Below are positions 10,357 through 46,816 of a stretch of 64,000 nucleotides of DNA, piece after piece; the stretch's first letter is position 1; each line of letters opens with the position of its first letter. The stretch covers positions 496,001 to 560,000 of the forward strand of contig NZ_JAMJXC010000001.1 in assembly GCF_023571765.1 (NCBI RefSeq), written 5' to 3'. Source of the DNA: Xanthobacter aminoxidans (lineage in GTDB: Bacteria; Pseudomonadota; Alphaproteobacteria; Rhizobiales; Xanthobacteraceae). The position numbers were made by a program, and so were the translations under genes. The notes beneath the pieces are model-generated. The model had not been told where the DNA came from, did not search any database, and worked only from the letters and a program-made list of their open reading frames with translations.

Positions 10357-11208
10357 GTGAACAAGCGCCCCTTCCTCGCCCTGTTCGTCGCCCCCGCGAC
10401 GCTGGCGGCCATCGCCTCCGCGGCGGCGCTCGCGGCGATCCTGCAATATGCCTTCCGTGCCTACGTGCCGGGCTCGCTCAATCCGGGCGGGCTCACGCTG
10501 GACAATTTCTTCGCGCTGCTGCGCCCGCTCTATGCGCAGGTGTTCATCCAGACCGTGTGGATCTGCCTCCTCACCGCGCTCATTACTTTGGTGGTGGCGT
10601 ATCCGCTCGCCTTCGCGCTGGTGCGGACGCGGAACGTGGCGCTGAAATCCTTCCTGCTGATTACCGCAGTCACGCCGCTCTTCCTCGGCGAGGTGGTGCG
10701 CACCTATTCCTGGATCATCGTGCTGGGCAACACCGGCTTCATCAATTCGGTGCTGAAGGGTCTCGGGATCATCGACCGGCCGATCCAGATGATGTTCACC
10801 ACCTTCGGCGTCGTCACCGCCCTCGTTCATGTGACGCTGCCGGTGATGGTCATCATGCTCTCGGCCGCGCTCTCCCACATCGATCGCGATTACGAGAAGG
10901 CCGCGACCTCCCTCGGCGCGGGGCCAGTGAAGGCCTTCCTCACCGTGATGCTGCCTCTTTCCATGCCCGGCGTGGTGGCGGGCGTTTCCACCGCCTTCGC
11001 CTGGACGTTTTCCGCCTTCGCCACGCCGCAGATGATTGGGGGCGGCAAGGTGAGCATGATCTCGACGCTGGTCTACCAGCTCGGTTTCGCCTCCTTCAAT
11101 TTCCCCTTCGCGGCGGCTCTCTCCGTCACCGGCCTCGCGCTCACCTTCGCGGTGCTCGCCATGGCGAAGCAGGCCATCAAGCCGCTGGAAAAGATCGGAG
11201 CCCACTGA
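10357..11208 (+). CDS. ABC transporter permease, PotB-like
   Basis: A 283-residue inner-membrane permease of the spermidine/putrescine type with about six membrane helices. The cytoplasmic EAA loop, which docks the ATPase, reads YEKAATSLGAGPVKAFLTV followed by a LP pair. The GTG at 10357, preceded by GAGCGAGAG, gives the usual PotB length; a longer start at 10294 lies inside a hairpin. The next permease begins on the last base of its stop codon. It forms the channel heterodimer with the following gene product. Confidence 0.9.
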   Translation: MNKRPFLALFVAPATLAAIASAAALAAILQYAFRAYVPGSLNPGGLTLDNFFALLRPLYAQVFIQTVWICLLTALITLVVAYPLAFALVRTRNVALKSFLLITAVTPLFLGEVVRTYSWIIVLGNTGFINSVLKGLGIIDRPIQMMFTTFGVVTALVHVTLPVMVIMLSAALSHIDRDYEKAATSLGAGPVKAFLTVMLPLSMPGVVAGVSTAFAWTFSAFATPQMIGGGKVSMISTLVYQLGFASFNFPFAAALSVTGLALTFAVLAMAKQAIKPLEKIGAH

Positions 11209-12050
11209 TGTCCGATCCGCGCAAGCGTCTCATCTCCGCCAAGGCCGGCGAGCGGCTTCTCGCCATCGCCGGCTGGACCGTGGTGTGGCTGGTGGTGGCC
11301 TTCATCATCCTGCCGGCGGTGGTGGTGGGCATCTCGGCCTTCAACGATCGCGCCATCCTCTCCTTCCCGCCGCAGGCCTGGTCCACGCGCTGGTTCGCGC
11401 GGGCCTTCTCCTATCGGGACTTCTCCGAGGGTTTTCGCAACGGCCTCATCATCACCGCCTTCGCCTCGTCCATCGCGCTCGTGGTGGGCGCCGGTTTCGC
11501 CTTCGCCCTCGATCGCTACAGCTTCCGGGGCAAGATGGCGCTGGAGGCGGTGCTGACCTCGCCGCTGGTGATCCCGCATTTCACCATCGGCCTCGGCTTC
11601 CTCATCCTCGCGGCGCAGATCCACGCCACGCGTACCTTCGCCCTCGTCATCGTCTGCCACGTGGTGCTGGTGCTGCCCTTCGTGATGCGCTCGGTCTATG
11701 TCTCGCTGCGCAATCTCGACAGCCGGCTGGAACTCGCCGCTGCGAGCCTCGGGGCGCGGCCTGGACGGGCACTGTTCACCGTGACGCTGCCTCTTCTCAT
11801 CCCCGGCCTGTTCTCGGGCTGGCTGTTCGCGGCCATCCTGTCCTTCAACGAGTTCACCGCCTCGCTGTTCGTCACCGCCCAGGCGACGCAGACGCTGCCG
11901 GTGGCCATGTACAATTACGTCCGCGAATACGCCGATCCGACGCTCGCGGCGCTGTCCGTCATCTACATCGTGGTCACGGCGCTGCTTCTCACCATCGCCA
12001 ACGCCTTCCTTGGCCTCGGAAAGGTTCTGAACGTTGAGCATGTCCGCTGA
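11208..12050 (+). CDS. ABC transporter permease, PotC-like
   Basis: A 280-residue permease with about six membrane helices and an EAA loop (LELAAASLGARPGRALFTV). It starts with ATG sharing one base with the preceding stop (TGATG), so it is translationally coupled to the first permease. The segment with VIPHFTIGLGFL and the motif FNEFTASLF are typical of PotC. It pairs with the PotB-like subunit to form the importer channel. Its 3' end overlaps the start of the ATPase gene by 11 bases. Confidence 0.92.
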   Translation: MSDPRKRLISAKAGERLLAIAGWTVVWLVVAFIILPAVVVGISAFNDRAILSFPPQAWSTRWFARAFSYRDFSEGFRNGLIITAFASSIALVVGAGFAFALDRYSFRGKMALEAVLTSPLVIPHFTIGLGFLILAAQIHATRTFALVIVCHVVLVLPFVMRSVYVSLRNLDSRLELAAASLGARPGRALFTVTLPLLIPGLFSGWLFAAILSFNEFTASLFVTAQATQTLPVAMYNYVREYADPTLAALSVIYIVVTALLLTIANAFLGLGKVLNVEHVR

Positions 12051-13197
12051 ACGCATCGATCCCCGGGAGCCTGTCTCCCCCGCCGTCTCCGCGCCTGTCG
12101 CGGACGCTGCCGCGCGCGTCGCCGGCGTCCAGATCGACGGCGTCACCAAGCGCTTCGGCGATGCCACCGCTCTGCACGAGGCGTGGCTGAAGATCGCCGA
12201 CGGCGAGTTCATGACGCTGCTCGGACCGTCCGGCTGCGGCAAGACCACGCTGCTCAACCTGATCGCCGGGTTTCTCGAGGCGGACGGCGGCGAGATCTTC
12301 GTCGGCGGACGGCTGATGACCGAGACCGCGCCCTATGATCGCGAGATCGGCGTCGTCTTCCAGAACTACGCTTTGTTCCCGCACATGAATGTCGCGAAGA
12401 ACGTGGGCTATGGCCTCCGGATGCGCGGCGTGGCGAAGCGCGAGATCGAGACGCGCGTCGCCGAGGCGCTGGCGCTGGTGAAGCTCGACGGCTTCGGCGA
12501 GCGCAAGCCGCGCCAGCTCTCCGGCGGCCAGCAGCAGCGCGTGGCGCTGGCCCGCGCGCTGGTGATCCGGCCCAAGGTGCTGCTGCTGGACGAGCCGTTC
12601 TCCGCCCTCGACAAGAATTTGCGCGGCGCCATGCAGGTGGAGCTGAAGGAAATCCAGCGCCGGCTCGGTGTCACCACCATCTTCGTCACCCACGACCAGA
12701 GCGAGGCGCTGTCCATGTCGGACCGCATCGCCGTCATGTCGCAGGGGCGCATCCGCCAGGTGGGCACGCCGGACGAGATCTATCGCCGGCCGCTGGACCC
12801 GTTCGTCGCGTCCTTTGTCGGCGATGTGAACGTGCTGCCGGGCCGGCTGGAGCGGCGCATCGGCGAGACCGCCACGGTGCTGATCGCCGAAGGGCGGCTC
12901 AGCGTCAGTGCGGATACGCTGGAGGGGATTGCTCCGGGCGCGGCCGTCGACCTCTACGTGCGGCCCGATGCAGTGCGCATCGCGGAAGGGGAGGGGCTGG
13001 TCTCCGGCACGGTGGCGACCCACGTCTATCAAGGCTCACACGTGGACGTGCTGGTGGACGTCGCAGCCGCGCGCGGTGGCCGCGTCACGGTGCGCGTGCC
13101 GGGGCACGGCGCCTCCACGCGCTGGCCGGCGGGCACCCGCGTCTCGCTCGATTTCTCGCCCGCCGATGCGGTGGCGTTCGCGTCCGATGTCGCCTGA
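12040..13197 (+). CDS. ABC transporter ATP-binding protein, PotA-like
   Basis: A 385-residue ATPase of the polyamine/iron (PotA/FbpC) class. Walker A GPSGCGKT is at 62-69, the Q-loop is near 108, the signature LSGGQQQR is at 160-167, Walker B LLLDEP is at 181-186 and the H-loop follows in FVTHDQSEAL. A C-terminal TOBE domain (YVRPDAVRI and onward) is present. A roughly 27-residue Ala/Val-rich N-terminal extension precedes the domain. The start is taken as ATG 12040; TTG 12034 is possible. It energises the importer encoded just upstream. It is convergent with DUF1028, with a hairpin in the short gap. Confidence 0.93.
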   Translation: MSAERIDPREPVSPAVSAPVADAAARVAGVQIDGVTKRFGDATALHEAWLKIADGEFMTLLGPSGCGKTTLLNLIAGFLEADGGEIFVGGRLMTETAPYDREIGVVFQNYALFPHMNVAKNVGYGLRMRGVAKREIETRVAEALALVKLDGFGERKPRQLSGGQQQRVALARALVIRPKVLLLDEPFSALDKNLRGAMQVELKEIQRRLGVTTIFVTHDQSEALSMSDRIAVMSQGRIRQVGTPDEIYRRPLDPFVASFVGDVNVLPGRLERRIGETATVLIAEGRLSVSADTLEGIAPGAAVDLYVRPDAVRIAEGEGLVSGTVATHVYQGSHVDVLVDVAAARGGRVTVRVPGHGASTRWPAGTRVSLDFSPADAVAFASDVA

Positions 13198-35101: not shown

Positions 35102-36229
35102 TCAGTAGACGATGACGTGCCGTACCACTTCGCCACGGTCGAGGCGGTCGAAATTCTCGTTGATGGTGTCGAGCGGCCCGGTGGAGGAGAGCAGGCGGTT
35201 CACCGGCAGCTTGCCGCGCTTGTAGAGCGCCATGAAGCGCGGGATGTCGCGCGGGGGCACGCAGCTGCCCATGTAGCTGCCCTTGATGGTGCGCTCCTCG
35301 GCGACGAGGTGCACCGGCGGCAGCGAGATACGAGCGTTGGGATTGGCGAGGCCGCCCGTGGTGGTGGTGCCGCCCCGGCGGGTGATCTTGTAGGCCAGCT
35401 CGAAGGCGGGCGCAGAGCCGGCCATCTCGATGGCGTGGTCCACGCCGCCGCGGGTCGCCTCCTTCACCGCCTCCACAATGTCCGGATCGCTGGCGAGGAA
35501 GGTGTCGGTGGCGCCGATCTGGCGGGCGAGGTCGAGCTTCTGGGGGGAAAGGTCGAGGGCGACGATCTGGTCGGCACCCGCCGCCACCGCGCCCATCACC
35601 GCCGAGAGGCCGACGCCGCCGAGGCCGACCACGGCGACGCTCTGGCCCGGCCGCACGCCGGCGGTGTTCACCACCGTGCCGACGCCGGTCATCACCGCGC
35701 AGCCGAACAGGGCGGCGTCGATGAGCGACATCTCCTTGTCGATCTTGATGATGGAGCGGCGCGAGACCACCGCATACTCGCCGTAACCGGCGATGCCGCA
35801 CAAATGGTAGGCTTCGGTACCGTCATCGCATGTCAGCCGCCGACCGCCGCCGAGCAAGGTGCCGGCACCGTTCGCCGCCTGTCCCGGTCCGCACAACTGG
35901 GCGCGGCCTTCCATGCAGGACGGGCAGGTGCCGCAGGTGGGCACGAAGCTCATCACCACATGGTCGCCGGCGCTGAGATCGTCCACGCCCGGACCGGTCT
36001 CCACCACCACGCCCGCCGCCTCGTGGCCGAGCACCATGGGAAGCTGGCGCGGCCGGTCGCCGTTGATGACGGACAGATCAGAATGGCACAGCCCCGCCGC
36101 CGCCACCTTGATGAGCACCTCGCCGGCCTGGGGCGGCGCGAGCTGAACCGTTTCAATGGAGAGCGGGCGCGTGTCCGCATAGGGCTTGTTGACCGGAGAC
36201 GTGCGCAGGACGGCGGCGCGGATCTGCAT
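35102..36229 (-). CDS. Zinc-dependent alcohol dehydrogenase
   Basis: A 375-residue medium-chain dehydrogenase. Catalytic zinc ligands are Cys48, His69-Glu70 and a Cys near 177 (ALFGCAVMTGVG). The structural zinc site has all four cysteines at 99, 102, 105 and 113. The NAD-binding turn GLGGVG is near 205. The sequence resembles class III and aryl/aldehyde-type enzymes more than simple ethanol dehydrogenases. It lies downstream of the TetR gene on the same strand, across 144 bases. Oxidation of an alcohol or of a hydroxymethyl adduct released by the divergent operon is possible, but the substrate is unknown. Confidence 0.92.
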   Translation of the reverse strand: MQIRAAVLRTSPVNKPYADTRPLSIETVQLAPPQAGEVLIKVAAAGLCHSDLSVINGDRPRQLPMVLGHEAAGVVVETGPGVDDLSAGDHVVMSFVPTCGTCPSCMEGRAQLCGPGQAANGAGTLLGGGRRLTCDDGTEAYHLCGIAGYGEYAVVSRRSIIKIDKEMSLIDAALFGCAVMTGVGTVVNTAGVRPGQSVAVVGLGGVGLSAVMGAVAAGADQIVALDLSPQKLDLARQIGATDTFLASDPDIVEAVKEATRGGVDHAIEMAGSAPAFELAYKITRRGGTTTTGGLANPNARISLPPVHLVAEERTIKGSYMGSCVPPRDIPRFMALYKRGKLPVNRLLSSTGPLDTINENFDRLDRGEVVRHVIVY

Positions 36230-36373
36230 CTTTTCCTCCCGATGCTGTTACCGCGTTTTCGGACGCCGTGGGGCAGAGCGTCAAGCGCGGGAGACTGCGC
36301 ATTTCGCAGGGGGAGCAAGCCGTCTCCCGCTCTGGACGCATGGAGCGTGAGCGGGAAGGCGAAGGGGCGTCCG

Positions 36374-37009
36374 TCAGGCCGCTTCGGCCGCCATGCCGGA
36401 CAGCAGCAGGTCTGCGGTTTGACCCGCCAGCAGGGCGACGTTGGCGTCCTTGGTGATCATGGCGGCGACGATGGCGCCGTCGATCAGGACACCCAATTGG
36501 TGGGCCGCCCCGTTGGGATCGCGCGCTCCGGCCTCGGCGGCGAGGCGGGTGATGGTTTCCAGCACCACCTTCTTGTGGGCGAGGGCGATCTGGCGCATCC
36601 GGTCGTCCGCCTTGTCGTGTTCGGCCACCGCATTGATGAAGGGGCAGCCGAAGAAGCGGGCGTCGCCGAACCATTCGCGGAGCACGGGGAAGATGCGGCG
36701 CAGGCGCACCTGTGCGGTTGCCTCGCCTTTCAGCAGTTCGCCGAGAAACCAGTCGCGCCACGCCGCGCCCTCGCGCTCCAGCACTGCCTCCACCAGCCGC
36801 TCCTTGGAGCCGAACGACTTGTAGAGGGTCGCCTTGGCCGTTGCCGCCTCGGCAACCACAGCGTCCACGCCCACCGCATTGATGCCGTGCTGGCAGAACA
36901 GGCGCGTCGCGGCCTGAAGGATGCGCTCGCGGGCCTTCGGCTCCGCCTCGCCCGCGTCCGGGGCGGCGTGGGGATTGGCCTTGGGGCGGCTTGCCTTCGT
37001 TTGCTGCAT
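36374..37009 (-). CDS. TetR-family transcriptional repressor
   Basis: A 211-residue TetR regulator. The helix-turn-helix is at about 28-72 (RERILQAATRLF, then ATAKATLYKSFGSKERLVEAVL). The C-terminal ligand domain includes RFFGCPFINAVAE, a segment seen in a TetR subgroup linked with redox and electrophile stress. It is divergent from the OsmC-led operon. Two perfect palindromes with the core ACAGAC lie in the 220-base gap, one 35 bases before its own start and one 22 bases before the OsmC start, so it probably represses both directions. The ligand is unknown. Confidence 0.92.
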   Translation of the reverse strand: MQQTKASRPKANPHAAPDAGEAEPKARERILQAATRLFCQHGINAVGVDAVVAEAATAKATLYKSFGSKERLVEAVLEREGAAWRDWFLGELLKGEATAQVRLRRIFPVLREWFGDARFFGCPFINAVAEHDKADDRMRQIALAHKKVVLETITRLAAEAGARDPNGAAHQLGVLIDGAIVAAMITKDANVALLAGQTADLLLSGMAAEAA

Positions 37010-37043
37010 CGCTTCTCACCAATGTGCTGCTTTCGCGTGCACT

Positions 37044-37059
37044 CAGACAGACCTGTCTG
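37044..37059. promoter_or_regulatory. TetR operator 1, before tetR
   Basis: CAGACAG-AC-CTGTCTG is a perfect interrupted palindrome. It shares CAGAC and GTCTG half-sites with the palindrome at 37191-37208. It stands 35 bases upstream of the TetR start, where it would give autorepression. Confidence 0.72.
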
Positions 37060-37172
37060 TTTTCTACAGGCACGAACCGTGCCGGACAAGCCGCGTCCAC
37101 TTTTCCCACAGCTCCTTATTTCTCATAAGGAATCGCAGGTCTCCTCCAGTCCGTCTCTTCCCTCGGTGGATC

Positions 37173-37188
37173 TGGCATGGTGCGTGCA
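37173..37188 (+). promoter_or_regulatory. Possible sigma-54 promoter (-24/-12)
   Basis: TGGCATGGTGCGTGCA contains GG, then 10 bases, then GC, and matches the consensus TGGCACG-N4-TTGC at all but two positions. Transcription would start near 37199, inside the TetR palindrome, about 30 bases before the OsmC start. No NtrC-type enhancer site was seen upstream, so this is tentative. Confidence 0.35.
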
Positions 37189-37190
37189 TA

Positions 37191-37208
37191 AGACAGACCG
37201 GTCTGTCT
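37191..37208. promoter_or_regulatory. TetR operator 2, before the OsmC-cyanase operon
   Basis: AGACAGACCGGTCTGTCT is a perfect 18-bp palindrome, ending 21 bases before the OsmC start. It matches the half-sites of the palindrome before tetR. Position at the presumed transcription start suits repression. Confidence 0.78.
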
Positions 37209-37229
37209 ACACGACCCAAGGAGATCCTG

Positions 37230-37796
37230 ATGACTGCGCCCCAGACCGCACTGACCGGCTGCCTCGCGCCAGAAGCGACCACGGGCTGCCTTGCGCCCAT
37301 CGACAAGGAAGGCCTCGCCAAGCTGATCGCGGCCGGCAAGGCGGACCCCAAGGTCATCAAAACCCTGAAGTGCAAGACCGTCGCCGAAGGCCGCTTCCGC
37401 CACGCGAACTACATCCGCAATCTCGAGCCCTACATCGTTGACGAGCCCCCGGGCCTGCTCGGCGACGACACGGCGCCGAACCCCTCCGAAGCGTCGCTGG
37501 CCGCGCTCGGCTCCTGCCTCGCCGTCGGCCTCCACGCCAATGCGGTGCATCGCGGCTGGACCGTCCGCAAGCTGGAGCTGCAGCTCGAGGGCGACCTCAA
37601 CATCACCGCCGTGTGGGGTACGGGCGACGTCAGCGAGAAGCCGGTCGGCTTCACCGACGTGCGCGTGAAGGTCGACATGGAGTGCGACGGCGTGCCGAAG
37701 GAGGAGGTCGAGGCGCTCATCTCCCACGTCACCAAGTGGTCGCCCGTGGCCAACACCTTCGTGCGTCCGGTGAACCTGGAGGTGGCGCTGGGCTGA
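37230..37796 (+). CDS. OsmC-family protein, first gene of the cyanase operon
   Basis: A 188-residue OsmC/Ohr-fold protein with about 45 extra residues at the N-terminus. The peroxidatic-type Cys96 is in LAALGSCLAVGLHANA. The second conserved Cys of Ohr/OsmC enzymes (normally CPVxNT) is replaced by Ser171 in WSPVANTF. It may therefore not be a standard peroxidase and could bind or activate a sulfur compound instead. AAGGAGA precedes the ATG. It lies directly behind the TetR operator, so it is the leader gene of the operon that ends with cyanase. Homologues are often seen beside rhodaneses and flavoproteins. Confidence 0.88.
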   Translation: MTAPQTALTGCLAPEATTGCLAPIDKEGLAKLIAAGKADPKVIKTLKCKTVAEGRFRHANYIRNLEPYIVDEPPGLLGDDTAPNPSEASLAALGSCLAVGLHANAVHRGWTVRKLELQLEGDLNITAVWGTGDVSEKPVGFTDVRVKVDMECDGVPKEEVEALISHVTKWSPVANTFVRPVNLEVALG

Positions 37797-37831
37797 CCGG
37801 CGCCGACCGACCGGCCGCTTTCGGCCGCATC

Positions 37832-37855
37832 CCTGCCCGGCAACGGCCGGGCAGG
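37832..37855 (+). terminator. Hairpin between the OsmC-like and flavoprotein genes
   Basis: CCTGCCCGGC (37832-37841) pairs perfectly with 37846-37855 around a 4-nt loop, without a T run. It may let the OsmC message be made in excess over the rest of the operon. Confidence 0.45.
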
Positions 37856-37884
37856 CTCCCGCCCTCTTCCCGTTGAGGATCGCC

Positions 37885-39018
37885 ATGTCGCTGCCTGTGT
37901 CGCACGTCGCCGTCACTGCCTTGTCGCCGCATGACCCTGCTGCGGTCGATCTCGATGCCGGCATCGCCCTCGACGAGATCGGCAAGATCGCGCGGACCGA
38001 TCTGTCCGCCTGGGCGCGGGCCATCGACGAGGGCACCTATCCCGCAACGCTGCTGCATCGCTTCGCCGACGCCGGAGCCTTCCGCCTGCATCTGTCGCAG
38101 GGCCACCGGCTGAGCAATGCCATCGAGGGCATGTCGCGCATGTCCGAGGTCTGCGCCGCCACGGGCTTCATGGCCTGGTGTCAGAACACGCTGGTCTGGT
38201 ACCTCATCAATTCCGAGAATGAGGCGCCCCGCGCCAAATATCTCGCCGCCGTCGCCACGGGTCACGTGCTCGGCGGGACCGCTTTGTCCAATCCCATGAA
38301 GTCCTTCTTCGGCATCGAGGCGCTGAAGCTGAAGGGCACGCGGGTGGAGGGCGGTTACAAGGTGAAGGGCATTCTGCCCTGGGTGTCCAACCTCGGCCCC
38401 GACCATTTCTTCGGCTGCATCTTCGCCGTGGACGGCGCCGCGCCTGTCATGGCGATCATCGACTGCGCCGAGCCGGCCGTGACGCTGAAGCCCTGCGAGC
38501 CGTTCCTCGGCATGGACGGCACCGGCACCTACGCCGTGCAGGTGCGCGACCTGTTCATCCCCGACGAGATGGTGCTGGCCCACGATGCCATGTCGTTCGT
38601 GAAGAAGATGCGGGCCGGCTTCATCCTGCTGCAGGCCGGCATGGCCTTCGGCCTCATCCGTGACTGCATCGCCATGATGCGCGAGGTGGAGGAGCCCCTC
38701 GGTCACGTGAACCGCTATCTCGACGTCCAGCCCGACCAGCTTTGCGAGACGCTGGCGGCCATGGAAGCGGAGGTGAACGCCCTCGCCGAAACGCCGTTCG
38801 ACGAGAGCCCGGACTACTGGCGCCGCGTCGTCTCCGCCCGCCTGCTCGCCGGCGAGAAGAGCGTCGAAGCCGCCCACAACGCCATGCTCCATTGCGGCGC
38901 CCGCGGCTATGTGCGCGCCTCCCGCTGCCAGCGGCGCCTGCGCGAGGCCTATTTCGTCGCCATCGTCACGCCGGCCACCAAGCAGCTGAAGCTGATGCTG
39001 GACCAGATGCCGGCCTGA
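37885..39018 (+). CDS. Acyl-CoA dehydrogenase-like flavoprotein
   Basis: A 377-residue protein of the acyl-CoA dehydrogenase superfamily. The central beta domain includes GHVLGGTALSNPMKSF and the FAD-facing KVKGILPWVSNLGPDHFFG. The C-terminal helical bundle contains HNAMLHCGARGYVRASRCQRRLREAYF. It lacks an obvious catalytic Glu in the usual place and resembles the branch that includes flavin-dependent monooxygenases of organosulfur compounds (DszC/SfnC-like) more than beta-oxidation enzymes. GAGGA precedes the ATG. No enoyl-CoA pathway genes are in the operon, which also argues for an oxygenase or an unusual dehydrogenase. The reaction is unknown. Confidence 0.85.
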   Translation: MSLPVSHVAVTALSPHDPAAVDLDAGIALDEIGKIARTDLSAWARAIDEGTYPATLLHRFADAGAFRLHLSQGHRLSNAIEGMSRMSEVCAATGFMAWCQNTLVWYLINSENEAPRAKYLAAVATGHVLGGTALSNPMKSFFGIEALKLKGTRVEGGYKVKGILPWVSNLGPDHFFGCIFAVDGAAPVMAIIDCAEPAVTLKPCEPFLGMDGTGTYAVQVRDLFIPDEMVLAHDAMSFVKKMRAGFILLQAGMAFGLIRDCIAMMREVEEPLGHVNRYLDVQPDQLCETLAAMEAEVNALAETPFDESPDYWRRVVSARLLAGEKSVEAAHNAMLHCGARGYVRASRCQRRLREAYFVAIVTPATKQLKLMLDQMPA

Positions 39019-39106
39019 GGCCGGCCGCCCGTTTCAAAACATGAGGGGCAAAAGCCCCCGGTGCCTTCCGAAAGAGTGTCCTCCCGACCCGCAAGAGGGG
39101 ATCACC

Positions 39107-39970
39107 ATGAGCGCAATCCTGATTTCGCCGTCCGATCTTTCGACCCTCATCCTGTCTGAACCCACCGTCGTCATCGATACCCGTGACCCCGCGAGCTACG
39201 CCGCCGGCCACATTCCCGGGGCGGTGAACCTGCACGAGATCTTCACCTTCCTCGCCACCTCGACCCCCGAGGGCTACGCCGAGCTTCGGCAGAAGTTCGC
39301 CGATGCCTTCGGCAAGGCCGGCCTCTCCGGCACCGAGACGGCGGTGATCTACGAGCAGTCCATGAATTCCGGCTTCGGCCAGTCCTGCCGCGGCTATTTC
39401 CTGCTCACCTTCCTCGGCTATCCCAAGGTGAAGGTGCTGCATGGCGGGTTCGCCGCCTGGACGGCCGCTAGCCTTCCCGTCTCCACCGACGTGCCCGAGC
39501 CCAAGGCCACCACTTTCCCGGTGGACCCGGCGGCCGGGGAACTCATCATCGACGCCGCCGCCATGCTGAAGGCGGTGGAAGACCCGGCCGTCGCCAAGCT
39601 CGACGTGCGGGACGTGGACGAGTGGATCGGCGAAAGCTCGTCGCCCTATGGCAAGGACTTCTGCCCCCGCAAGGGGCGGATCCCCGGCGCCAAATGGATC
39701 GAGTGGTACCGCATGATGAAGCCGACCGCCGAGGGGCCGCGCTTCAAGTCGTCCGCCGAGATCCTCGCCGAGTGCGCCACCGTGGGCATTTCGCCCGAAA
39801 CCCCCGTCTATCTCTACTGCTTCAAAGGGGCGCGGGCCTCCAACACCTTCCTCGCGCTGAAAGAGGCGGGGGTGAAGGACGTGAAGATGTATTTTGGCTC
39901 CTGGAACGAGTGGTCGCGCGATCCGTCCCTGCCCATCGAGGAGGGGCACCCGGCCGCGGCCCTCGGCTGA
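39107..39970 (+). CDS. Two-domain sulfurtransferase (rhodanese / mercaptopyruvate type)
   Basis: A 287-residue protein with two rhodanese domains. The N-terminal domain (about 5-130) begins with VVIDTRDPASYAAGHIPGA and has no active Cys in its loop. The C-terminal domain (about 145-285) has the active Cys238 in YLYCFKGARASN. The active-site loop CFKGARA differs from those of typical thiosulfate (CRKGVTA) and mercaptopyruvate (CGSGVTA) enzymes, so the donor may be different. It has no signal peptide. Rhodaneses move sulfur between cyanide, thiocyanate and thiols; here the partner genes end with cyanase. It is the third gene of the operon. Confidence 0.9.
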   Translation: MSAILISPSDLSTLILSEPTVVIDTRDPASYAAGHIPGAVNLHEIFTFLATSTPEGYAELRQKFADAFGKAGLSGTETAVIYEQSMNSGFGQSCRGYFLLTFLGYPKVKVLHGGFAAWTAASLPVSTDVPEPKATTFPVDPAAGELIIDAAAMLKAVEDPAVAKLDVRDVDEWIGESSSPYGKDFCPRKGRIPGAKWIEWYRMMKPTAEGPRFKSSAEILAECATVGISPETPVYLYCFKGARASNTFLALKEAGVKDVKMYFGSWNEWSRDPSLPIEEGHPAAALG

Positions 39971-39992
39971 ACCGAGCCAAAGGAGCCCCGCC

Positions 39993-40619
39993 GTGCCCGA
40001 GATCATCTGCTATTTCAGCCCCCAGTCCGGCTATGCCTATCTGGGGCACGGCCGCCTGCGCGAGATCGCGCGCGCGGCGGGCGCCGACATTCTGTGGCGT
40101 CCCGTCGACATCCTGAAGGTCTTCGCCGAGGGCGGGTCCACCGCCCCGGCGAAGCAGTCGCCCCAGCGCAACGCCTATCGTAAGCAGGACATCGTGCGTT
40201 GGGCCAAGGTGCGCGGCATCTCCATCAATACCGAGCCGAAGTTCTGGCCCACGGATACGCTTCCCGCGTGTCGTCTCATCGCGGCGGCGCAGATCGAGGG
40301 CATCGACCCCGCCGACCTCATCGGCGCCTGCCTCTCCGCCGTGTGGGCGCGGGACATCCAGATTTCCGAGCGGGACAGTCTCGTCCGCCTCGCCAATGAG
40401 GTGGGGCTGGATGGTGAGAAGCTCGCCACCCTCTCCGACAGCGTGGAGGCGGCCGACAAGATCGCGCGCAACACCGCCGCAGCCATCGAGGCGGGCGTGT
40501 TCGGCTCGCCCACCTATTTCGTGAACGGCGAGATGTATTTCGGCCAGGACCGGCTGCTGTTCGTCGCCGCCGCGCTGGGCGTCGCGCAGGAACCGGTGGC
40601 GCAGGAGCATCTGTCGTGA
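39993..40619 (+). CDS. DsbA/GST-kappa-fold protein, 2-hydroxychromene-2-carboxylate isomerase family
   Basis: A 208-residue thioredoxin-fold protein of the kappa class. The start EIICYFSPQSGYAYLGHGRL and the pair GVFGSPTYFVNGEMYFGQDRL are typical of the HCCA isomerase group, which uses glutathione. The dithiol CxxC of DsbA is missing, and Ser/Gln residues stand at that place. The start is GTG behind AAAGGAG. A role in binding a glutathione conjugate or isomerising an intermediate is plausible. Its GTGA overlap with the next gene shows tight coupling in the operon. Confidence 0.87.
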   Translation: MPEIICYFSPQSGYAYLGHGRLREIARAAGADILWRPVDILKVFAEGGSTAPAKQSPQRNAYRKQDIVRWAKVRGISINTEPKFWPTDTLPACRLIAAAQIEGIDPADLIGACLSAVWARDIQISERDSLVRLANEVGLDGEKLATLSDSVEAADKIARNTAAAIEAGVFGSPTYFVNGEMYFGQDRLLFVAAALGVAQEPVAQEHLS

Positions 40620-41794
40620 GCGCGCCGCTCGTCATCATTGGGGCCGGGCAGGCGGCGGCGCAGGCCGTCACCTCCCTCAAGGCCGAGGGCTATGGCAAGC
40701 CCATCATCGTCATCGGCGACGAGCCCTATCTGCCCTACCAGCGCCCGCCGCTCTCCAAGGCCTATCTCGGCGGCGAGATGACCGAAGATCGGCTGGAGCT
40801 GAAGGCGCCCGCCTTCTACGCCGATGCGGGCGCCGAGATGCGCCTCTCCACCCTCGTCGCCCGCATCTTGCCTGTGGGCAAGGAGGTGGAGCTTTTCGAT
40901 GGCACCCGCCTCGCCTACGGCGCGCTGCTGATCGCCACCGGCACCCGCGCCCGCGCGCTGCCTGTGCCGGGGGCGGAACTGCCGGGCGTGTTTTCCATCC
41001 GCAGCATCGACGATGTGAAGCACTTCCGCGCCGCTGCGCTTGCGGGCGCGCGGCTGGTGATTATCGGGGGCGGCTATATCGGGCTGGAGACGGCGGCCAA
41101 GGCGAAGACGCTGGGGCTCGATGTCACCGTGGTGGAAGGCGCACCGCGTCTTCTCGCCCGCGTCGCCTGCACCACCATCTCCGATTTCGCGCGTGACCTG
41201 CACGAGGGCCACGGCATCACCATCCTCACCGGCACCGGCGTCGCCCGCATTCTGGGCACGGATGGCGTGACGGGCGTGGAACTCGCCGACGGACGGGTGC
41301 TGCCGGCCGATCTCGTGCTCTCCGCCGTGGGCGCGGTGCCCAATGGCGAAATTGCCGCCGATGCCGGCCTCGTCATGGAGAACGGCATCCGGGTGGACGA
41401 GGCGACCCGCACCAGCGTGCCCGACATCTACGCTGCCGGAGATGTGGCCAATTTCCCAAGCAAGCTCTACGGCCGGCGGGTTCGCCTCGAATCCGTGCAG
41501 AATGCGATCGATCAGGCCAAGGTTGCCGCAAAAGCAATCAGCGGTGGGACAGTTGCATACGATCCGGTCCCCTGGTTCTGGTCCGATCAGTATGATGTGA
41601 AGCTGCAGATCGTCGGCCTTCTCGACGGGCACGACCGCACCGAATGCGAGGGCGACGTCGCCGCCGGACGCTTCTGCGTCAGGTACTTCGCGGGGGATCG
41701 CCTCGTCGCGGTCGCCTCCGTCAACGATCCGAAAAGCCACATGCTGGCGCGCAAGGCGCTCGCCACCCCGCCGCCCGTCCCCGTTCCCGGGTGA
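40616..41794 (+). CDS. FAD-dependent NAD(P)H:ferredoxin reductase-like oxidoreductase
   Basis: A 392-residue flavoprotein of the rhodocoxin/putidaredoxin reductase family. The FAD motif VIIGAGQAAAQA is at 6-17, ATGTRAR at 107-113, the NAD(P) motif IIGGGYIGLETA at 149-160 and the FAD-binding YAAGDVANF near 280. The C-terminal domain has PWFWSDQYDVKLQIVG. It would feed electrons from NAD(P)H to an electron carrier or directly to the flavoprotein of the operon. No ferredoxin gene is adjacent, which is unusual. It starts with GTG overlapping the previous gene. Confidence 0.92.
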   Translation: MSAPLVIIGAGQAAAQAVTSLKAEGYGKPIIVIGDEPYLPYQRPPLSKAYLGGEMTEDRLELKAPAFYADAGAEMRLSTLVARILPVGKEVELFDGTRLAYGALLIATGTRARALPVPGAELPGVFSIRSIDDVKHFRAAALAGARLVIIGGGYIGLETAAKAKTLGLDVTVVEGAPRLLARVACTTISDFARDLHEGHGITILTGTGVARILGTDGVTGVELADGRVLPADLVLSAVGAVPNGEIAADAGLVMENGIRVDEATRTSVPDIYAAGDVANFPSKLYGRRVRLESVQNAIDQAKVAAKAISGGTVAYDPVPWFWSDQYDVKLQIVGLLDGHDRTECEGDVAAGRFCVRYFAGDRLVAVASVNDPKSHMLARKALATPPPVPVPG

Positions 41795-41867
41795 GCGTGG
41801 CACGGGCATTGCCCTATCCCAGCGTCACGTTCGTCCGGTCCATCGCAAGCCCTCACGGAGAGCCCTG

Positions 41868-43232
41868 ATGTCGATGTTTTCCAACCCGTTCTCGCTGAAG
41901 TCCACGCTGCGCCGCTGCCTGTGCGGGCGGCACGCGAGCGCGGAGGAACATGCGGCGGCGGAGCGGGCGGCGACGCTCTCCGATGAGGCGCGCTACAAGG
42001 AGGTGGTCGCCTCCGGCCTCATGCGGGCGCTGTTCCCGAACGACCTGAAGCGCCGCGCCTTCCTCAAGGCCGTGGGCACCTCCACCGCGGCGGCAGCCCT
42101 CGCCACCTTCTTCCCGCTGGATGTCGCCACCGAAGCCTTCGCCCAGACCGGCAAGCCGGAGAAGACGGACCTCAAGGTGGGCTTCATCCCCATCACCTGC
42201 GCCACGCCGATCATCATGGCCCATCCCATGGGCTTCTACACCAAGCACGGCCTGAACGTGGAGGTGGTGAAGACCGCCGGCTGGGCGGTGGTGCGCGACA
42301 AGACCATCAACAAGGAATACGACGCCGCCCACATGCTGGCGCCCATGCCGCTGGCCATCTCGCAGGGGCTTGGCTCGAACCCGATCCCGTTCGTCGCGGC
42401 GGCCATCGAGAATATCAACGGCCAGTCCTTCACGCTGGGCATCAAGCACAAGGACAAGATGGATGTGAAGTCGTGGAAGGGGATGAAGCTCGCCATTCCC
42501 TACGACTTCTCCATGCACAACTATCTGCTGCGCTACCTGCTGGCCGAGAACGGCATCGATCCGGATACCGACGTTCAGCTGCGCGTGGTGCCGCCGCCGG
42601 AGATGGTGGCGAACCTCAGGGCAGAGAACATCGACGGCTTCCTCGCCCCGGACAACGTGGCCCAGCGCGCGGTGTTCGACGGCGTCGGCTTCATCCACTC
42701 CTTGTCCAAGACCATGTGGGACGGGCACCCCTGCTGTTCCTTCGCGGCCAGCAAGGAATTCATCTCCACCATGCCGAATACTTACGCGGCACTGCTGCGG
42801 GCCATCGTGGATGCCACCGGCTATGCCTCCAAGGCCGAGAACCGCAAGGCCATCGCCGAGGCCATCGCGCCGGCCGCCTATCTTAACGCGCCGCCGATCG
42901 TGCTGGAGCAGGTGCTGGTGGGCAAGTATGCGGACGGGCTCGGCAACATCAAGGACGACCCCAAGCGCGTCGATTTCGATCCTTTCCCGTGGGATTCCTT
43001 CGCAGTGTGGATGCTGACCCAGATGAAGCGCTGGGGGCAGGTGAAGGGTGACGTGGACTACACCAAGGTCGCCAACGAGGTCTTCCTCGCCACCGACGCC
43101 GCGAAGGTGATGAAGGAGATGGGCCTCACCCCGCCCGCCACCACGATGAAGTCGTTCTCGGTGATGGGGAAGGTGTTCGATCCCGCAAAGCCCGCCGAAT
43201 ACGTCAATTCCTTCGCCATCAAGCGGAGCTGA
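41868..43232 (+). CDS. ABC transporter substrate-binding protein, NrtA/CynA type
   Basis: A 454-residue binding protein of the nitrate/bicarbonate/cyanate class. As in NrtA/CmpA, a roughly 60-residue leader with a Cys-rich patch (RCLCGRHASAEEH) comes before a twin-arginine-like signal (KRRAFLKAVG, Arg62-Arg63), with cleavage likely near residue 92. The binding domain contains LKVGFIPITCATPIIMAHPMGFY. Ligands of relatives are small anions. With cyanase at the end of the operon, cyanate is the most likely ligand, but another small nitrogen or sulfur compound (thiocyanate) is also possible. Confidence 0.92.
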   Translation: MSMFSNPFSLKSTLRRCLCGRHASAEEHAAAERAATLSDEARYKEVVASGLMRALFPNDLKRRAFLKAVGTSTAAAALATFFPLDVATEAFAQTGKPEKTDLKVGFIPITCATPIIMAHPMGFYTKHGLNVEVVKTAGWAVVRDKTINKEYDAAHMLAPMPLAISQGLGSNPIPFVAAAIENINGQSFTLGIKHKDKMDVKSWKGMKLAIPYDFSMHNYLLRYLLAENGIDPDTDVQLRVVPPPEMVANLRAENIDGFLAPDNVAQRAVFDGVGFIHSLSKTMWDGHPCCSFAASKEFISTMPNTYAALLRAIVDATGYASKAENRKAIAEAIAPAAYLNAPPIVLEQVLVGKYADGLGNIKDDPKRVDFDPFPWDSFAVWMLTQMKRWGQVKGDVDYTKVANEVFLATDAAKVMKEMGLTPPATTMKSFSVMGKVFDPAKPAEYVNSFAIKRS

Positions 43233-43236
43233 GGGG

Positions 43237-44076
43237 ATGAAGAGCCTCGGCGTGCGCGCCGGCCTCCTCTCGGTGCTGATGTTCGTCGCCTTCTGCGCGC
43301 TATGGCAGATCGCCGTCACCCCGAGCGCGAGTTCGGGGCCGGCGCTCGATCCCGAATATGCCAAGCTGATGGGCATCGCCACGGAGGGCGCCAAGTCCGC
43401 CATGCCCGGGCCGCTCGATGTGGCGGGCAAGCTCTGGGACAACCTGAAGCGGCCGTTCTACGACAACGGCCCCAACGACAAGGGCCTCGGCCTCCAGCTC
43501 CTCTATTCCATCGGCCGTGTGTTCATCGGCTATGGATTGGCGGTGCTGGTGGCGGTGCCCATCGGCTTCCTCATCGGCATGTCGCCGCTGGCCTACCGGG
43601 CGCTCGATCCCTTCATCCAGGTGCTCAAGCCCATCTCGCCCTTGGCCTGGATGCCGCTCGCCCTCTACACCATCAAGGATTCCTCCCTCTCGGCCATCTT
43701 CGTCATCTTCATCTGCTCGGTCTGGCCCATGCTCATCAACACCGCCTTCGGTGTCGGGGCGGTGCGCAAGGAGTGGCTGAACGTGGCGCGCACGCTGGAG
43801 GTGGGGCCGTGGCGGCGCGCCTTCACCGTGATCCTGCCGGCGGCGGCGCCCACCATCCTCACCGGCATGCGCATCTCCATCGGCATCGCCTGGCTGGTTA
43901 TCGTGGCGGCGGAGATGCTCGTGGGCGGAACCGGCATCGGCTACTTCGTCTGGAACGAGTGGAACAACCTCTCCATCGCCAATGTGATCGTGGGGATCCT
44001 GCTCATCGGCGTCGTCGGCATGGCGCTCGACCTCATTCTCGCGCGCCTGCAGAAGCGCGTGACGTTTCCGGAGTGA
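43237..44076 (+). CDS. ABC transporter permease, NrtB/CynB type
   Basis: A 279-residue permease of the nitrate/sulfonate/taurine class with about six membrane helices and one N-terminal helix. The EAA-type loop is VRKEWLNVARTLEVGPWRRAFTVILP. The loop LKPISPLAWMPLALY is diagnostic of NrtB-like proteins. It begins 4 bases after the binding-protein stop and is followed by the ATPase after 5 bases. It forms a homodimeric channel. Confidence 0.92.
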   Translation: MKSLGVRAGLLSVLMFVAFCALWQIAVTPSASSGPALDPEYAKLMGIATEGAKSAMPGPLDVAGKLWDNLKRPFYDNGPNDKGLGLQLLYSIGRVFIGYGLAVLVAVPIGFLIGMSPLAYRALDPFIQVLKPISPLAWMPLALYTIKDSSLSAIFVIFICSVWPMLINTAFGVGAVRKEWLNVARTLEVGPWRRAFTVILPAAAPTILTGMRISIGIAWLVIVAAEMLVGGTGIGYFVWNEWNNLSIANVIVGILLIGVVGMALDLILARLQKRVTFPE

Positions 44077-44081
44077 GGGCC

Positions 44082-45017
44082 ATGGCGAACCCCAGGACCG
44101 AGAGCGATCCCAAATTCATCTCCATCGAGGGCATCGCCCGGCGCTATCCGGCGGCGGGTGGCGGCTCCACCACCATCTTCGAGGATCTCTGGCTTCCCGT
44201 GGCGCGGGGCGAGTTCGTCTGCATCATCGGCCATTCCGGCTGCGGCAAGACGAGCGTGCTCAATATCCTCGCCGGGCTTGAGGAGCCTTCGGACGGCGTG
44301 GTGGTGGTGGACGGGCAGGCCATTTCCGGCCCGAGCCTCGACCGCGCGGTGATCTTCCAGGGCCATGCGCTGCTCCCCTGGAAGAGCGTCATCGGCAATG
44401 TGGGCTATGCCGTCTCTTCCCGCTGGCGCAAGGCGGGTCGGGCGGAGGTGGAGGCGCGGGCGCGCCGCTTCATCGATCTCGTCGGCCTCAAGGGCAACGA
44501 GCTGAAGCGACCGGCCGAACTCTCCGGCGGCATGCGCCAGCGCGTGGGCATCGCCCGCGCGCTGTCCATCGAGCCGAAGATACTGCTCATGGACGAGCCC
44601 TTCTCCGCGCTCGACGCGCTCACCCGCGGCACATTGCAGGACGAGGTGCGCCGCATCTGCAAGTCCACCGGTCAGACGGTCGTCATGATCACCCACGACG
44701 TGGACGAGGCCATCTACCTCGCCGACAAGATCGTCCTGATGACCAATGGTCCGGAGGCGATGATCGCCGAGGTGGTCGAGAACCCGCTGCCCATGGAGCG
44801 CGCCCGCGACAGCATCCATCGCGAAGAGGATTACTACGCGGTGCGCAACCACCTGGTGGACTTCCTCGTCTCCCGCAGCCGGACCTTCAAGACCGAGATG
44901 CCGGCCGGCTACGACCGCCGCCACCCGCCCGTGGTGCGTCTCGGCCGCCAGCCGAAGCCCGAGCCGGCGCCGGCCAACACCATTCCCTTCCCCGCCATCG
45001 CCCATGCGCGGGACTGA
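44082..45017 (+). CDS. ABC transporter ATP-binding protein, NrtD/CynD type
   Basis: A 311-residue ATPase. Walker A GHSGCGKT is at 50-57, the Q-loop in IFQGHALLPWKS, the signature LSGGMRQR at 147-154, Walker B LLMDEP at 168-173 and the H-loop in MITHDVDEA. A C-terminal extension of about 45 residues (RTFKTEMPAGYDRRHPP and onward) is Pro-rich. It resembles NrtD (ATP domain without the NrtC solute-binding extension). It drives uptake for the importer encoded just upstream, and cyanase follows after 38 bases. Confidence 0.92.
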   Translation: MANPRTESDPKFISIEGIARRYPAAGGGSTTIFEDLWLPVARGEFVCIIGHSGCGKTSVLNILAGLEEPSDGVVVVDGQAISGPSLDRAVIFQGHALLPWKSVIGNVGYAVSSRWRKAGRAEVEARARRFIDLVGLKGNELKRPAELSGGMRQRVGIARALSIEPKILLMDEPFSALDALTRGTLQDEVRRICKSTGQTVVMITHDVDEAIYLADKIVLMTNGPEAMIAEVVENPLPMERARDSIHREEDYYAVRNHLVDFLVSRSRTFKTEMPAGYDRRHPPVVRLGRQPKPEPAPANTIPFPAIAHARD

Positions 45018-45055
45018 CGGACCTTCGACCGAACTCAAGCGGAGACCATAAGAAG

Positions 45056-45544
45056 ATGAAGCGCGAGCAACTGACCGAGAAGCTTCTCGACATCAAGCGC
45101 GAGAAGGGTTGGACCTGGAAATACATCTGCGACGAGATCGGCGGCATGTCGCCGGTGCTCGTCGTCGGCGCGCTGCTGGGCCAGATGAAGCTGGTGAAGC
45201 CGCTGGCGAAGAAGGCCGCGGATCTGTTCGGTCTTTCCGAGGTGGAAGAGCGGATGCTGAACGAGGTGCCCATGCGCGGCGCCGGCACGCCCATGCCCCC
45301 CACCGATCCGCTGATCTACCGCTTCTACGAGCTGGTGATGGTCAACGGCCCGGCCTGGAAGGCGCTGATCGAGGAGGAGTTCGGCGACGGCATCATGTCC
45401 GCCATCGACTTCAACATGGAGATGGTGCGCGAGCCGAACCCCAAGGGCGACCGGGTGCAGATCACCATGTCCGGCAAATTCCTGCCCTACAAATATTACG
45501 GCAACGAGCAGGGCATCCCCGATTACGGCTTCAAGGAAAGCTGA
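45056..45544 (+). CDS. cynS: Cyanase (cyanate hydratase)
   Basis: A 162-residue cyanase, which converts cyanate and bicarbonate to ammonia and two CO2. The catalytic residues of the E. coli enzyme (Arg96, Glu99, Ser122) correspond to Arg89, Glu92 and Ser115 here, at the same spacing, in DPLIYRFYELVMVNGPAWK and FGDGIMSAIDFNMEM. The N-terminal helix-turn-helix-like domain that builds the decamer is present. It is the last gene of the operon and is followed by a strong terminator. It gives the organism cyanate as a nitrogen source and as a detoxification route. Confidence 0.97.
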   Translation: MKREQLTEKLLDIKREKGWTWKYICDEIGGMSPVLVVGALLGQMKLVKPLAKKAADLFGLSEVEERMLNEVPMRGAGTPMPPTDPLIYRFYELVMVNGPAWKALIEEEFGDGIMSAIDFNMEMVREPNPKGDRVQITMSGKFLPYKYYGNEQGIPDYGFKES

Positions 45545-45570
45545 GCCGGCCCTCCGCCGCTTGGCCAAAG

Positions 45571-45605
45571 AAAAACCCCGCCGGGCGACCGGCGGGGTTT
45601 TTTGT
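45571..45605. terminator. Bidirectional Rho-independent terminator after cynS
   Basis: A perfect 14-bp stem (45571-45584 with 45589-45602), GCGA tetraloop and a T run to 45605 ends the cyanase operon. The left arm starts with five A residues, so it can also end the convergent DUF4167 transcript. Confidence 0.95.
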
Positions 45606-45625: not shown

Positions 45626-46816
45626 CTATTCGTTGAACAGTGCCGGCTGCTCGGGCGCAGGGGCCTCGGCGGCAGCCTCGGCTCCCTCGCCGGCCCGGGT
45701 GCGGAAGCGGCGGCGACGCGGACGCGGGGCGTCTGCGCCCTCGGCGACCTCTGCACCCTCCTCGCGGGGCGTTTCCGCAGCCGCCTTGGGCTCAGCCTTC
45801 TCCGCCTTGGCCACGGCCTTCGGTTCGGCTTTCGGCTCCGCCTTGGGTTCGCGGGGCTCCGCCTTCGGCTCGCTCTTCACCTCGGCCTTGGGTTCGGGGC
45901 GCTCCTTGGGAACGGCCGGTGCGCCGGTGATGAAGGACGGCAGGCCGAGATCCTGCTCCTCGACGCGGGGCGCGCGCGGCGGACGGGGCTGCTCGACCTC
46001 CTCATTGCGCGGCGCGCGATGCGGACGCGGCTGATCGCCATCGTCGCTGCGGGGCGCGCGGGCCGCGCGGGGCACGAAGCCTTCGCCATTGTCGTCGCGG
46101 TTGCGGCGGCGGAACTCGCGCGGCTCGCGCTGTTCTCTCGGCTCGCGCTGTTCCCGCGGGTCACGTTGTTCCCTCTGGTCGCGGGGCTCGCGCTGCTCCC
46201 GGGGTTCGCGCTGTTCGCGGGGGTCCCGATTCTCGCGATTGTCGCGGGCCTCGCGCGGCTGGTAGCTCTCGTCGTCATCCCGATTGCGACGGAAATTGCC
46301 CTGCCGATTGTCGCGCTGGCCACGGTCATCCCGCTGACCACGATCATCCCGCTGACCCCGGTCATCCCGGTAGCCCCGATCTTCACGTTGGCCGCGATCT
46401 TCGCGCTGACCCCGATCATCCCGATTTTCGCGCGACTGGTAGGGTTGCTCGCCGCGGCCATAGGGCTGCTCGTTGCGGCCGTAGGGCTGAGGGGCGTCGA
46501 GGGAGGACATGTCGTCCATGTCCTCGTCGTCGCCTTCCTCGTCGCGGCCGAAGCCGTTCACCGGGGCAAACTGGCCCTGCAGCGAGGCGATGAGGCGAAG
46601 ATAGTGTTCCGCATGCTGGAAATAGTTCTCAGCCGCCACGTGGTCGCCGGAGGACTGGGCGTCGCGGGCGAGCTGCTGATACTTTTCCGCAATGTGGTGG
46701 GCTGTCCCGCGCACCTTCACATCCGGGCCGTTCGACTCATACACCCGCGTCAAAGGGTTTGAGCTGCGCCGGTTGTTGTTGCGGCCGCGCATGCGCTTCT
46801 GCTGACCATTTCTCAT
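45626..46816 (-). CDS. DUF4167 protein with long charged repeats
   Basis: A 396-residue protein. Residues 1-85 form the conserved DUF4167 domain (MRNGQQKRMRGRNNN, then RVYESNGPDVKVRGTAHHIAEKYQQLARDA). The domain is found widely in alphaproteobacteria and probably binds RNA. The rest is disordered and repetitive: RGQR(E/D)D units at 131-170, EQREPR units at 196-234 and EPKAEPK units at about 308-345, ending in a basic RRRRFRTRAGEG stretch. The gene is placed just after prmC in direction of transcription, as in many Hyphomicrobiales. The function is unknown. Confidence 0.9.
   Translation of the reverse strand: MRNGQQKRMRGRNNNRRSSNPLTRVYESNGPDVKVRGTAHHIAEKYQQLARDAQSSGDHVAAENYFQHAEHYLRLIASLQGQFAPVNGFGRDEEGDDEDMDDMSSLDAPQPYGRNEQPYGRGEQPYQSRENRDDRGQREDRGQREDRGYRDDRGQRDDRGQRDDRGQRDNRQGNFRRNRDDDESYQPREARDNRENRDPREQREPREQREPRDQREQRDPREQREPREQREPREFRRRNRDDNGEGFVPRAARAPRSDDGDQPRPHRAPRNEEVEQPRPPRAPRVEEQDLGLPSFITGAPAVPKERPEPKAEVKSEPKAEPREPKAEPKAEPKAVAKAEKAEPKAAAETPREEGAEVAEGADAPRPRRRRFRTRAGEGAEAAAEAPAPEQPALFNE
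46115..46426 (-). repeat. Coding repeats in the DUF4167 gene
   Basis: The DNA encodes charged units of five to seven residues (DDRGQR and REQREP types) repeated many times in residues 131-234. The near-identical units make the region prone to length change by slippage or recombination. Confidence 0.8.

Follow-up and report, generated by a model that had tools for sequence, protein, structure and literature searches.

A conserved flavoprotein and OsmC module joined to cyanase in Xanthobacter aminoxidans and other proteobacteria: a candidate route from a small C-N-S compound to cyanate

For the first step of thiocyanate use, the accessible part of PMC5328954 (2017) names just two enzymatic routes, namely a hydrolase that forms carbonyl sulfide (COS) and a copper dehydrogenase that forms cyanate. 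The same part describes the thiocyanate dehydrogenase (TcDH) as a copper enzyme exported by twin-arginine translocation (Tat) and acting as a thiocyanate:cytochrome c oxidoreductase, and it lists heterotrophs of Methylobacterium, Ralstonia, Klebsiella, Sphingomonas, and Arthrobacter as users of thiocyanate nitrogen. In the accessible part of PMC6627978, the cynFABDS cluster of Pseudomonas pseudoalcaligenes CECT5344 consists only of a regulator, an importer, and cyanase. The locus considered here lies in a 64,000-nucleotide stretch of Xanthobacter aminoxidans DNA (contig NZ_JAMJXC010000001.1, positions 496,001 to 560,000), hereafter the window. It holds nine same-strand genes (37230–45544, + strand) that start with an OsmC-like protein and end with the cyanase CynS, with a divergent TetR gene ahead of them and a zinc alcohol dehydrogenase (ADH) beyond TetR. 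From gene content and conservation, we hold with modest confidence that this run would be a dedicated TetR-controlled catabolic operon, which probably takes up a small C-N-S anion, with thiocyanate the likeliest candidate, turns it into cyanate and sulfane sulfur by flavin-based chemistry in the cytoplasm, and passes the cyanate through cyanase to NH3 and CO2.

The initial annotation had described a strand-uniform run of seven members. All genes that it named were found where it had placed them and on the same strands, and the strand uniformity was borne out, but the importer consists of three genes and the run thus of nine. The OsmC-like protein (37230–37796, +; Pfam OsmC 1.4e-18) is followed by a flavoprotein of the acyl-CoA-dehydrogenase (ACAD) fold (37885–39018, +), which is the proposed oxidising enzyme, and by a two-domain rhodanese-type sulfurtransferase (39107–39970, +; Pfam Rhodanese 2.2e-33). 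Two genes of putatively accessory function come next. One encodes a protein of the DsbA/GST-kappa fold (39993–40619, +; Pfam DSBA 9e-37; PDB 2imd 1e-16), whose GTG start at 39993 was picked by eye and whose nearest solved structures are 2-hydroxychromene-2-carboxylate (HCCA) isomerases, and the other an FAD-dependent, ferredoxin-reductase-like protein (40616–41794, +; Pfam Pyr_redox_2 and Reductase_C), which may serve electron transfer. The importer genes precede cynS (45056–45544, +), whose product scored 142.1 against TIGR00673 (cut-off 113.3) and 216.4 against NF002773 (cut-off 150) and is the sole PF02560 match in the whole 5.8 Mb genome. The flavoprotein shares 97% identity with its counterpart in Xanthobacter sp. 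YC-JY1.

Named genomes were scanned once with the flavoprotein as query, which yielded the 23 loci to which all neighbour-gene counts refer. They came from Xanthobacter, Rhodoblastus, Methylocystaceae, Methylobacterium, Breoghania, Roseibium/Labrenzia, Martelella, a lichen Rhizobiales metagenome-assembled genome (MAG), and Rhodobacterales MAGs. An OsmC homologue was present in all 23 loci and a divergent TetR homologue in 22, that of L037 being a contig-end fragment. The conserved core is OsmC plus the flavoprotein, with the rhodanese intact in 21 of 23. Accordingly, a fixed set of all five extra genes was not supported, as the HCCA-like protein (9/23) and the FAD reductase (15/23) are often absent. 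ADH membership in the conserved unit was rejected, as homologues occurred in only five loci, all from Xanthobacter. Conservation with cynS had been named beforehand as the point on which the linkage would stand or fall. The cynS gene lies within 19 of the 23 loci, and the genomes of the other four (L037, L040, L042, and L044) carry it elsewhere; L037 and L044 are short contigs. Since OsmC and the flavoprotein occur with cynS in 19 loci and with a cynS elsewhere in the remaining four genomes, an accidental linkage is very unlikely.

The linkage was also compared with a genomic background. In an order sample of 199 genomes, the flavoprotein was found at E <= 1e-45 in 10 genomes and a cyanase match in 45. 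All 10 flavoprotein-positive genomes have cynS (Fisher about 1.5e-7), a value that is conservative because the query genome, not among the 10, was counted as flavoprotein-negative and cynS-positive, and that applies to genomes linked by common descent, four of the 10 belonging to one genus. The two genes lay within 10 kb of each other in 8 of the 10. Seven more flavoprotein genomes came from a phylum sample of 398, and among these cynS was within 10.5 kb in G488, G510, and G215 and on another contig in G464. In the 17 genomes of both samples, cynS was adjacent in 11, elsewhere in three, and absent in three. A class sample of 385 genomes gave no additional flavoprotein genome; thus, the module is uncommon.

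These counts bear on the explanation that a plain cynABDS cyanate-assimilation operon merely happened to become joined with an oxidative-stress operon. Four genomes of one genus in the same family (L018–L021) would suit it, as they carry cynABDS with a divergent sigma-54 gene, an arrangement familiar from cynFABDS, beside a separate unit of TetR, OsmC, ACAD, and sulfurtransferase. However, eight adjacent pairs were observed in the order sample against 0.05 expected, and the association recurs in alpha-, beta-, and gammaproteobacteria with cyanases, importers, and regulators that differ, so that a chance fusion has hardly any probability. The 33 cyanases of these loci form four groups, and no cross-group pair reaches 60% identity. 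In Roseibium aggregatum, the loci of strains PHM038 (L045) and SY-2-12 (L046) form a sister pair in the flavoprotein tree (support 100/97) and share 95% identity in OsmC, 84% in the flavoprotein, and 88% in the rhodanese, while their CynS proteins are only 48% identical and that of L046 is 85% identical to the window CynS. The simplest reading is that the cyanase was probably replaced in place. The regulator is of the TetR family in loci of the window type, and a GAF sigma-54 activator lies in or near L024, L025, L055, L057, L058, and L069; two importer types are joined to the same core as well. Such exchange of cyanases, importers, and regulators around one core argues for a functional need of cyanase and against accident.

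The flavoprotein is only barely recognised by Pfam Acyl-CoA_dh_N (23.7 versus a cut-off of 22.9). Its AlphaFold model, based on an alignment of 19 sequences, one from the window and the others from 18 of the 23 named loci, is confident (pLDDT 89.9), and the best 50 Foldseek rows gave ACAD-fold proteins at TM 0.70–0.83 and 14–20% identity. Residue counts and the tree were obtained from 49 of 51 rows, as L052 and L059, whose tblastn matches start ahead of an in-frame stop 5' of the gene, were dropped by the length filter; two diverged paralogues (L027 and L028) are among the 49. The fold and the FAD-binding motif W-I/V-T/S-N of acyl-CoA dehydrogenases are kept, with W166 in 49/49 rows and S or T at 168. 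In place of the catalytic glutamate, Thr362-Pro363 was found in 49/49 rows; the aligned stretches stop just short of this position, which was assigned from the motif EIYEGT of the short-chain acyl-CoA dehydrogenase, presumed to place the glutamate at Thr362. As threonine occupies the position of the glutamate, acyl-CoA dehydrogenase activity is unlikely. The protein has conserved motifs of its own (W-C-Q/H and LGHVN), and the oxygenating enzymes XiaF and 3-HSA hydroxylase are among its structural relatives. A function as a monooxygenase or other oxidase would seem to fit better. Two further ideas were discarded: Cys99 is not an essential sulfur acceptor, being Cys in 46/49 rows, and a defence link was dropped, as PADLOC returned no match.

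The thiol proteins were assessed in the same way. In OsmC, the nucleophile Cys96 is present in 45/45 rows, and Ser171 occupies the position of the resolving cysteine in 45/45 rows, a position set by alignment to 1lql, whose second cysteine we take to be the resolving residue. OsmC/Ohr peroxidases have two catalytic cysteines; with serine at the second position, this OsmC is not a standard two-cysteine peroxidase. The rhodanese has two domains and its active cysteine in the C-terminal loop CFKGAR (Cys238), and Cys238, Cys94, and Cys186 are invariant in 13/13 aligned sequences.

The importer comprises a substrate-binding protein (SBP) of the NrtA/CmpA/CynA type (41868–43232, +; Pfam NMT1_2 7.8e-77; PDB NrtA 2g29 5.9e-44) with a twin-arginine signal, RRAFLK, as judged by eye, an NrtB-type permease of the ATP-binding cassette (ABC) class (43237–44076, +; TIGR01183 220.2 bits, cut-off 209.05), and an ABC ATPase (44082–45017, +; Pfam ABC_tran 1.6e-27). 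By families and structure matches it is a predicted CynABD-type importer, adjoining cynS in the same direction. At least part of an ABC importer was found in 22 of the 23 named loci and an SBP likewise in 22, of which 10 are of the NrtA type and 12 of a second, NMT1/SsuA-like type; the latter sits 5' of OsmC except in L038. Importers of the nitrate/bicarbonate/cyanate class, or of this second type, fit a small anion. A C-N-S substrate that gives cyanate and sulfur is the best inference, and thiocyanate is most likely that substrate, as it is a small anion needing an importer and would yield exactly cyanate and sulfane sulfur. To our knowledge, it is the only common small anion whose oxidation gives just these two products; sulfonates yield no cyanate.

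The same architecture might instead act on an organic C-N-S compound of the isothiocyanate, thiourea, or thiocarbamoyl type, with cyanate as one of several products. The SsuA/NMT1-like importer in 12 of the 23 loci is in line with such a substrate, and both XiaF and 3-HSA hydroxylase oxygenate organic molecules. However, the same core pairs with either importer type, which a small inorganic anion fits better, and, apart from the genes named above, no gene family for the leftover carbon part, as would be expected with isothiocyanates, recurs in the unit across groups when genes are called with a simple gene caller. We consider an organic substrate rather unlikely. Cyanide is another candidate, since rhodanese and cyanase are the textbook enzymes of cyanide and cyanate, and an intact rhodanese and cynS occur together in 17 of the 23 loci. 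The flavoprotein would then oxidise cyanide to cyanate, and the rhodanese would also capture cyanide as thiocyanate. Yet neutral HCN needs no importer, while the importer is at least partly present in nearly all loci, and cyanate is no intermediate of cyanide use in P. pseudoalcaligenes according to the accessible part of PMC6627978. Hence, cyanide handling is very improbable.

With thiocyanate as the favoured substrate, the pathway can be proposed as five steps. First, the importer, of the NitT/TauT class, would bring SCN- into the cell. Second, the flavoprotein would oxygenate SCN- using reduced flavin, with electrons presumably from NAD(P)H through the ferredoxin- or rubredoxin-reductase, or through a general reductase in those loci where the ferredoxin-reductase is absent. 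Third, and this is the weakest step, the Cys96 thiol of OsmC might trap the oxidised product, so that OCN- leaves and a persulfide remains. Fourth, the rhodanese, or in other lineages a persulfide-dioxygenase-like protein, would take the sulfur; the families were observed in the loci. Fifth, CynS would turn cyanate into ammonia and CO2, a reaction established for the cyanase family. In a more detailed version, which we advance tentatively and regard as possible but doubtful, this would be a third thiocyanate route, in which the flavoprotein, as a monooxygenase, makes cytoplasmic hypothiocyanite. An OsmC thiol without resolving partner, or elsewhere an AhpD/CMD-type CxxC protein, would capture it as mixed Cys-S-SCN; hydrolysis would then free cyanate and leave a persulfide for the rhodanese or persulfide dioxygenase before cyanase finishes the route. 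If true, this third route could supply the first enzyme that is so far missing for heterotrophs growing with thiocyanate as nitrogen source.

Beyond loci of the window type, the core is OsmC, the flavoprotein, and a rubredoxin-NAD reductase, with importer and CynS, as in Caballeronia (L058), a Marinobacter plasmid (L055), and an Acetobacter plasmid (L057). The rubredoxin-reductase gene lies directly 3' of the flavoprotein gene in L024, L025, L055–L058, and L069. In place of a rhodanese, L024 and L025 have a metallo-beta-lactamase (MBL) protein that matches the dioxygenase part of the Blh sulfur-transferase/dioxygenase model; for L024 the match was 1.3e-116 at 390 bits, under the whole-model cut-off of 625, and the persulfide dioxygenase ETHE1 was among the structural relatives (3.8e-20). 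A distant (27%) relative of this protein lies 3' of cynS in L058, and in L069 a rhodanese adjoins OsmC. A CMD/AhpD-type CxxC protein stands in place of OsmC in Moraxella (L056), L059, L070, and L071. Thus, sulfur-accepting and thiol proteins exchange around one and the same flavoprotein.

Several observations were made beside these architectures. In L059 (Neisseria gonorrhoeae, 4.4–6.5 kb) and L071 (6.6–8.6 kb, from a 1.8 Mb genome without a cyanase match), a CMD-type gene, the flavoprotein homologue, and a rubredoxin-matching stretch follow in a row. In the genome of the window, L027 (G000:C13:34500-53000) holds at about 8334–13000 a set made up of a CMD/AhpD-type gene, a second, diverged flavoprotein-like gene (about 31–34% identity), and an NMT1-type ABC importer, in this order, and L028 has a similar set; this may be a sister system for another sulfur compound. 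On a Pseudosulfitobacter plasmid (L052, 0.8–13 kb), the module is flanked by TniQ, TniB, and Mu-type transposase genes on one side and by an IS5 transposase on the other; the flavoprotein has matches in 18 plasmid records of the genus, from one of which the gene context was taken.

Variation of this kind also touches on sulfur scavenging, in which the flavoprotein and OsmC would provide the cell with sulfur by desulfurising a sulfonate-like compound, the association with cyanase being secondary. L026, L054, and L068 combine importer, OsmC, and flavoprotein but hold neither rhodanese nor cynS; cynS is also missing from the rest of G366, the genome to which L068 belongs. In Acetobacter, DUF1852 and methionine synthase genes are found about 5 kb away from the locus. 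On the other hand, cynS is present in 14 of the 17 sampled flavoprotein genomes, from four groups, and no gene of the window unit scored above the cut-off for a sulfonate monooxygenase family. Consequently, sulfur scavenging appears improbable.

Several points weigh against an operon that takes thiocyanate to cyanate. The chief caution is that cyanase beside thiocyanate hydrolase genes is, according to the accessible part of PMC5328954, no proof of a cyanate route. A thiocyanate-dehydrogenase homologue is reported, in the part of PMC8061750 that was accessible, from Afipia, another alphaproteobacterium. Concerning linkage, cynS is absent from three of the 17 sampled flavoprotein genomes (G366, G290, and G513) and on another contig in G034, G196, and G464. 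Two of the cynS-less cases are the most diverged flavoproteins (38–39%), but that of G366 is 46% identical; moreover, at E <= 1e-20 two more order-sample genomes (G076 and G170) appear, with cynS on another contig. Concerning gene content, the FAD reductase is absent from 8 of the 23 named loci, and the rhodanese is absent from L049 and reduced in X. oligotrophicus (L033) to a 35-residue match in a 48-aa frame at 10129–10272, the other operon genes having homologues in that locus. As for the proteins, the Foldseek matches among the best 50 are generic acyl-CoA dehydrogenases and ColB1, and Caballeronia (L058) has Ala in place of Cys99 of the flavoprotein, so that this cysteine cannot be an essential sulfur acceptor. 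The nearest solved OsmC relative, 2opl, shares the serine at the resolving position, and the trait thus also occurs outside the module. Finally, the highest score of the second SBP type was to the SsuA sulfonate family (96 bits, below the cut-off of 163.5), which makes an organosulfur substrate possible.

The initial annotation had noted coupled starts at several joints, and this was confirmed: the HCCA-like and FAD reductase genes overlap by 4 bases, and gaps of 4 and 5 bases separate SBP from permease and permease from ATPase. The terminator it had placed after cynS was likewise recovered as an intrinsic hairpin with a U-run at about 45571–45604 (+; fold -32.9 kcal/mol, z -5.2). A consensus terminator scan did not list this hairpin and gave no + strand terminator within 37230–45544 and no promoter; it carries little weight, with four terminator-like sites against a mean of 7.4 in shuffles. 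The divergent TetR-family regulator (36374–37009, -; Pfam TetR_N 1.2e-14) is separated from OsmC by a gap with two near-perfect palindromes of the pattern AGACAGACCNGTCTGTCT, at 37045 and 37191. Both are operator-like; the first (AGACAGACCTGTCTGTTT) spans 37045–37062, and the second (AGACAGACCGGTCTGTCT), which is perfect, spans 37191–37208 just 5' of the OsmC gene. The pattern had four matches, both strands counted, against 0.12 expected in window shuffles. Both palindromes, or close variants of them, recur in the named Xanthobacter loci L029–L036, apart from L036, which has one; related palindromes are clear in Rhodoblastus (L038) and Methylobacterium (L040) and partial in L017 and L067. The pattern was not found in most other loci, and a family-wide TetR operator was rejected; in some loci, short AGAC...GTCT matches fall within or close to genes. 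The ADH gene lies at 35102–36229 (-). Beyond the terminator, a long low-complexity open reading frame (ORF) with RE/RD and PKAE repeats occupies 45626–46816 on the - strand of the window.

Through a flavoprotein module that accompanies cyanase in alpha-, beta-, and gammaproteobacteria, the gap at the first step would become testable genetically, and substrate turnover would gain a marker gene. Such a module would also point to functions for an ACAD without the dehydrogenase base and an OsmC without the resolving cysteine, both annotated by fold only. Among the matches listed from the open-access literature, this gene set was not described, which is no proof of novelty because most subscription papers lie outside that literature.

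Compared with the TcDH cyanate pathway of Thioalkalivibrio and Thiohalobacter, the proposed net reaction, from SCN- to cyanate and sulfane sulfur, would be the same, but the operon has an ACAD-fold protein without visible export signal together with OsmC and rhodanese, and no copper gene. The Pfam and NCBIfam rows of the unit's genes name no TcDH, although a genome search aimed at this enzyme was not made. In Thiobacillus, the scnABC cluster of the COS pathway likewise includes an importer of the NitT/TauT class, genes for sulfur transfer, and cyanase, according to the accessible part of PMC5328954; this likeness favours thiocyanate as the substrate. However, no scn subunit resembling nitrile hydratase (NHase) is present in the operon here. 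A single NHase-alpha match was found in the genome, on a different contig (L074, 1483–2854), where an alpha ORF with the metal motif CTLCSC adjoins a single 231-aa beta-like ORF; with only one such ORF, as judged by eye, a thiocyanate hydrolase was rejected in favour of a likelier nitrile hydratase. The cynFABDS cluster shares the CynABD-type importer and CynS in the same order; here, five more genes precede them, and the regulator is a divergent TetR gene instead of a sigma-54 regulator. At the protein level, acyl-CoA dehydrogenases, XiaF, and 3-HSA hydroxylase resemble the flavoprotein in fold and FAD motif, from which it departs by its low identity to ACADs (14–20% over the best 50 Foldseek rows), the threonine at the catalytic glutamate position, and its own motifs. 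OsmC/Ohr hydroperoxide reductases share the fold family and nucleophilic cysteine, but here serine takes the resolving position. Taken together, these comparisons suggest a cyanate-forming catabolism of a putative substrate by an enzyme set unrelated to the known ones.

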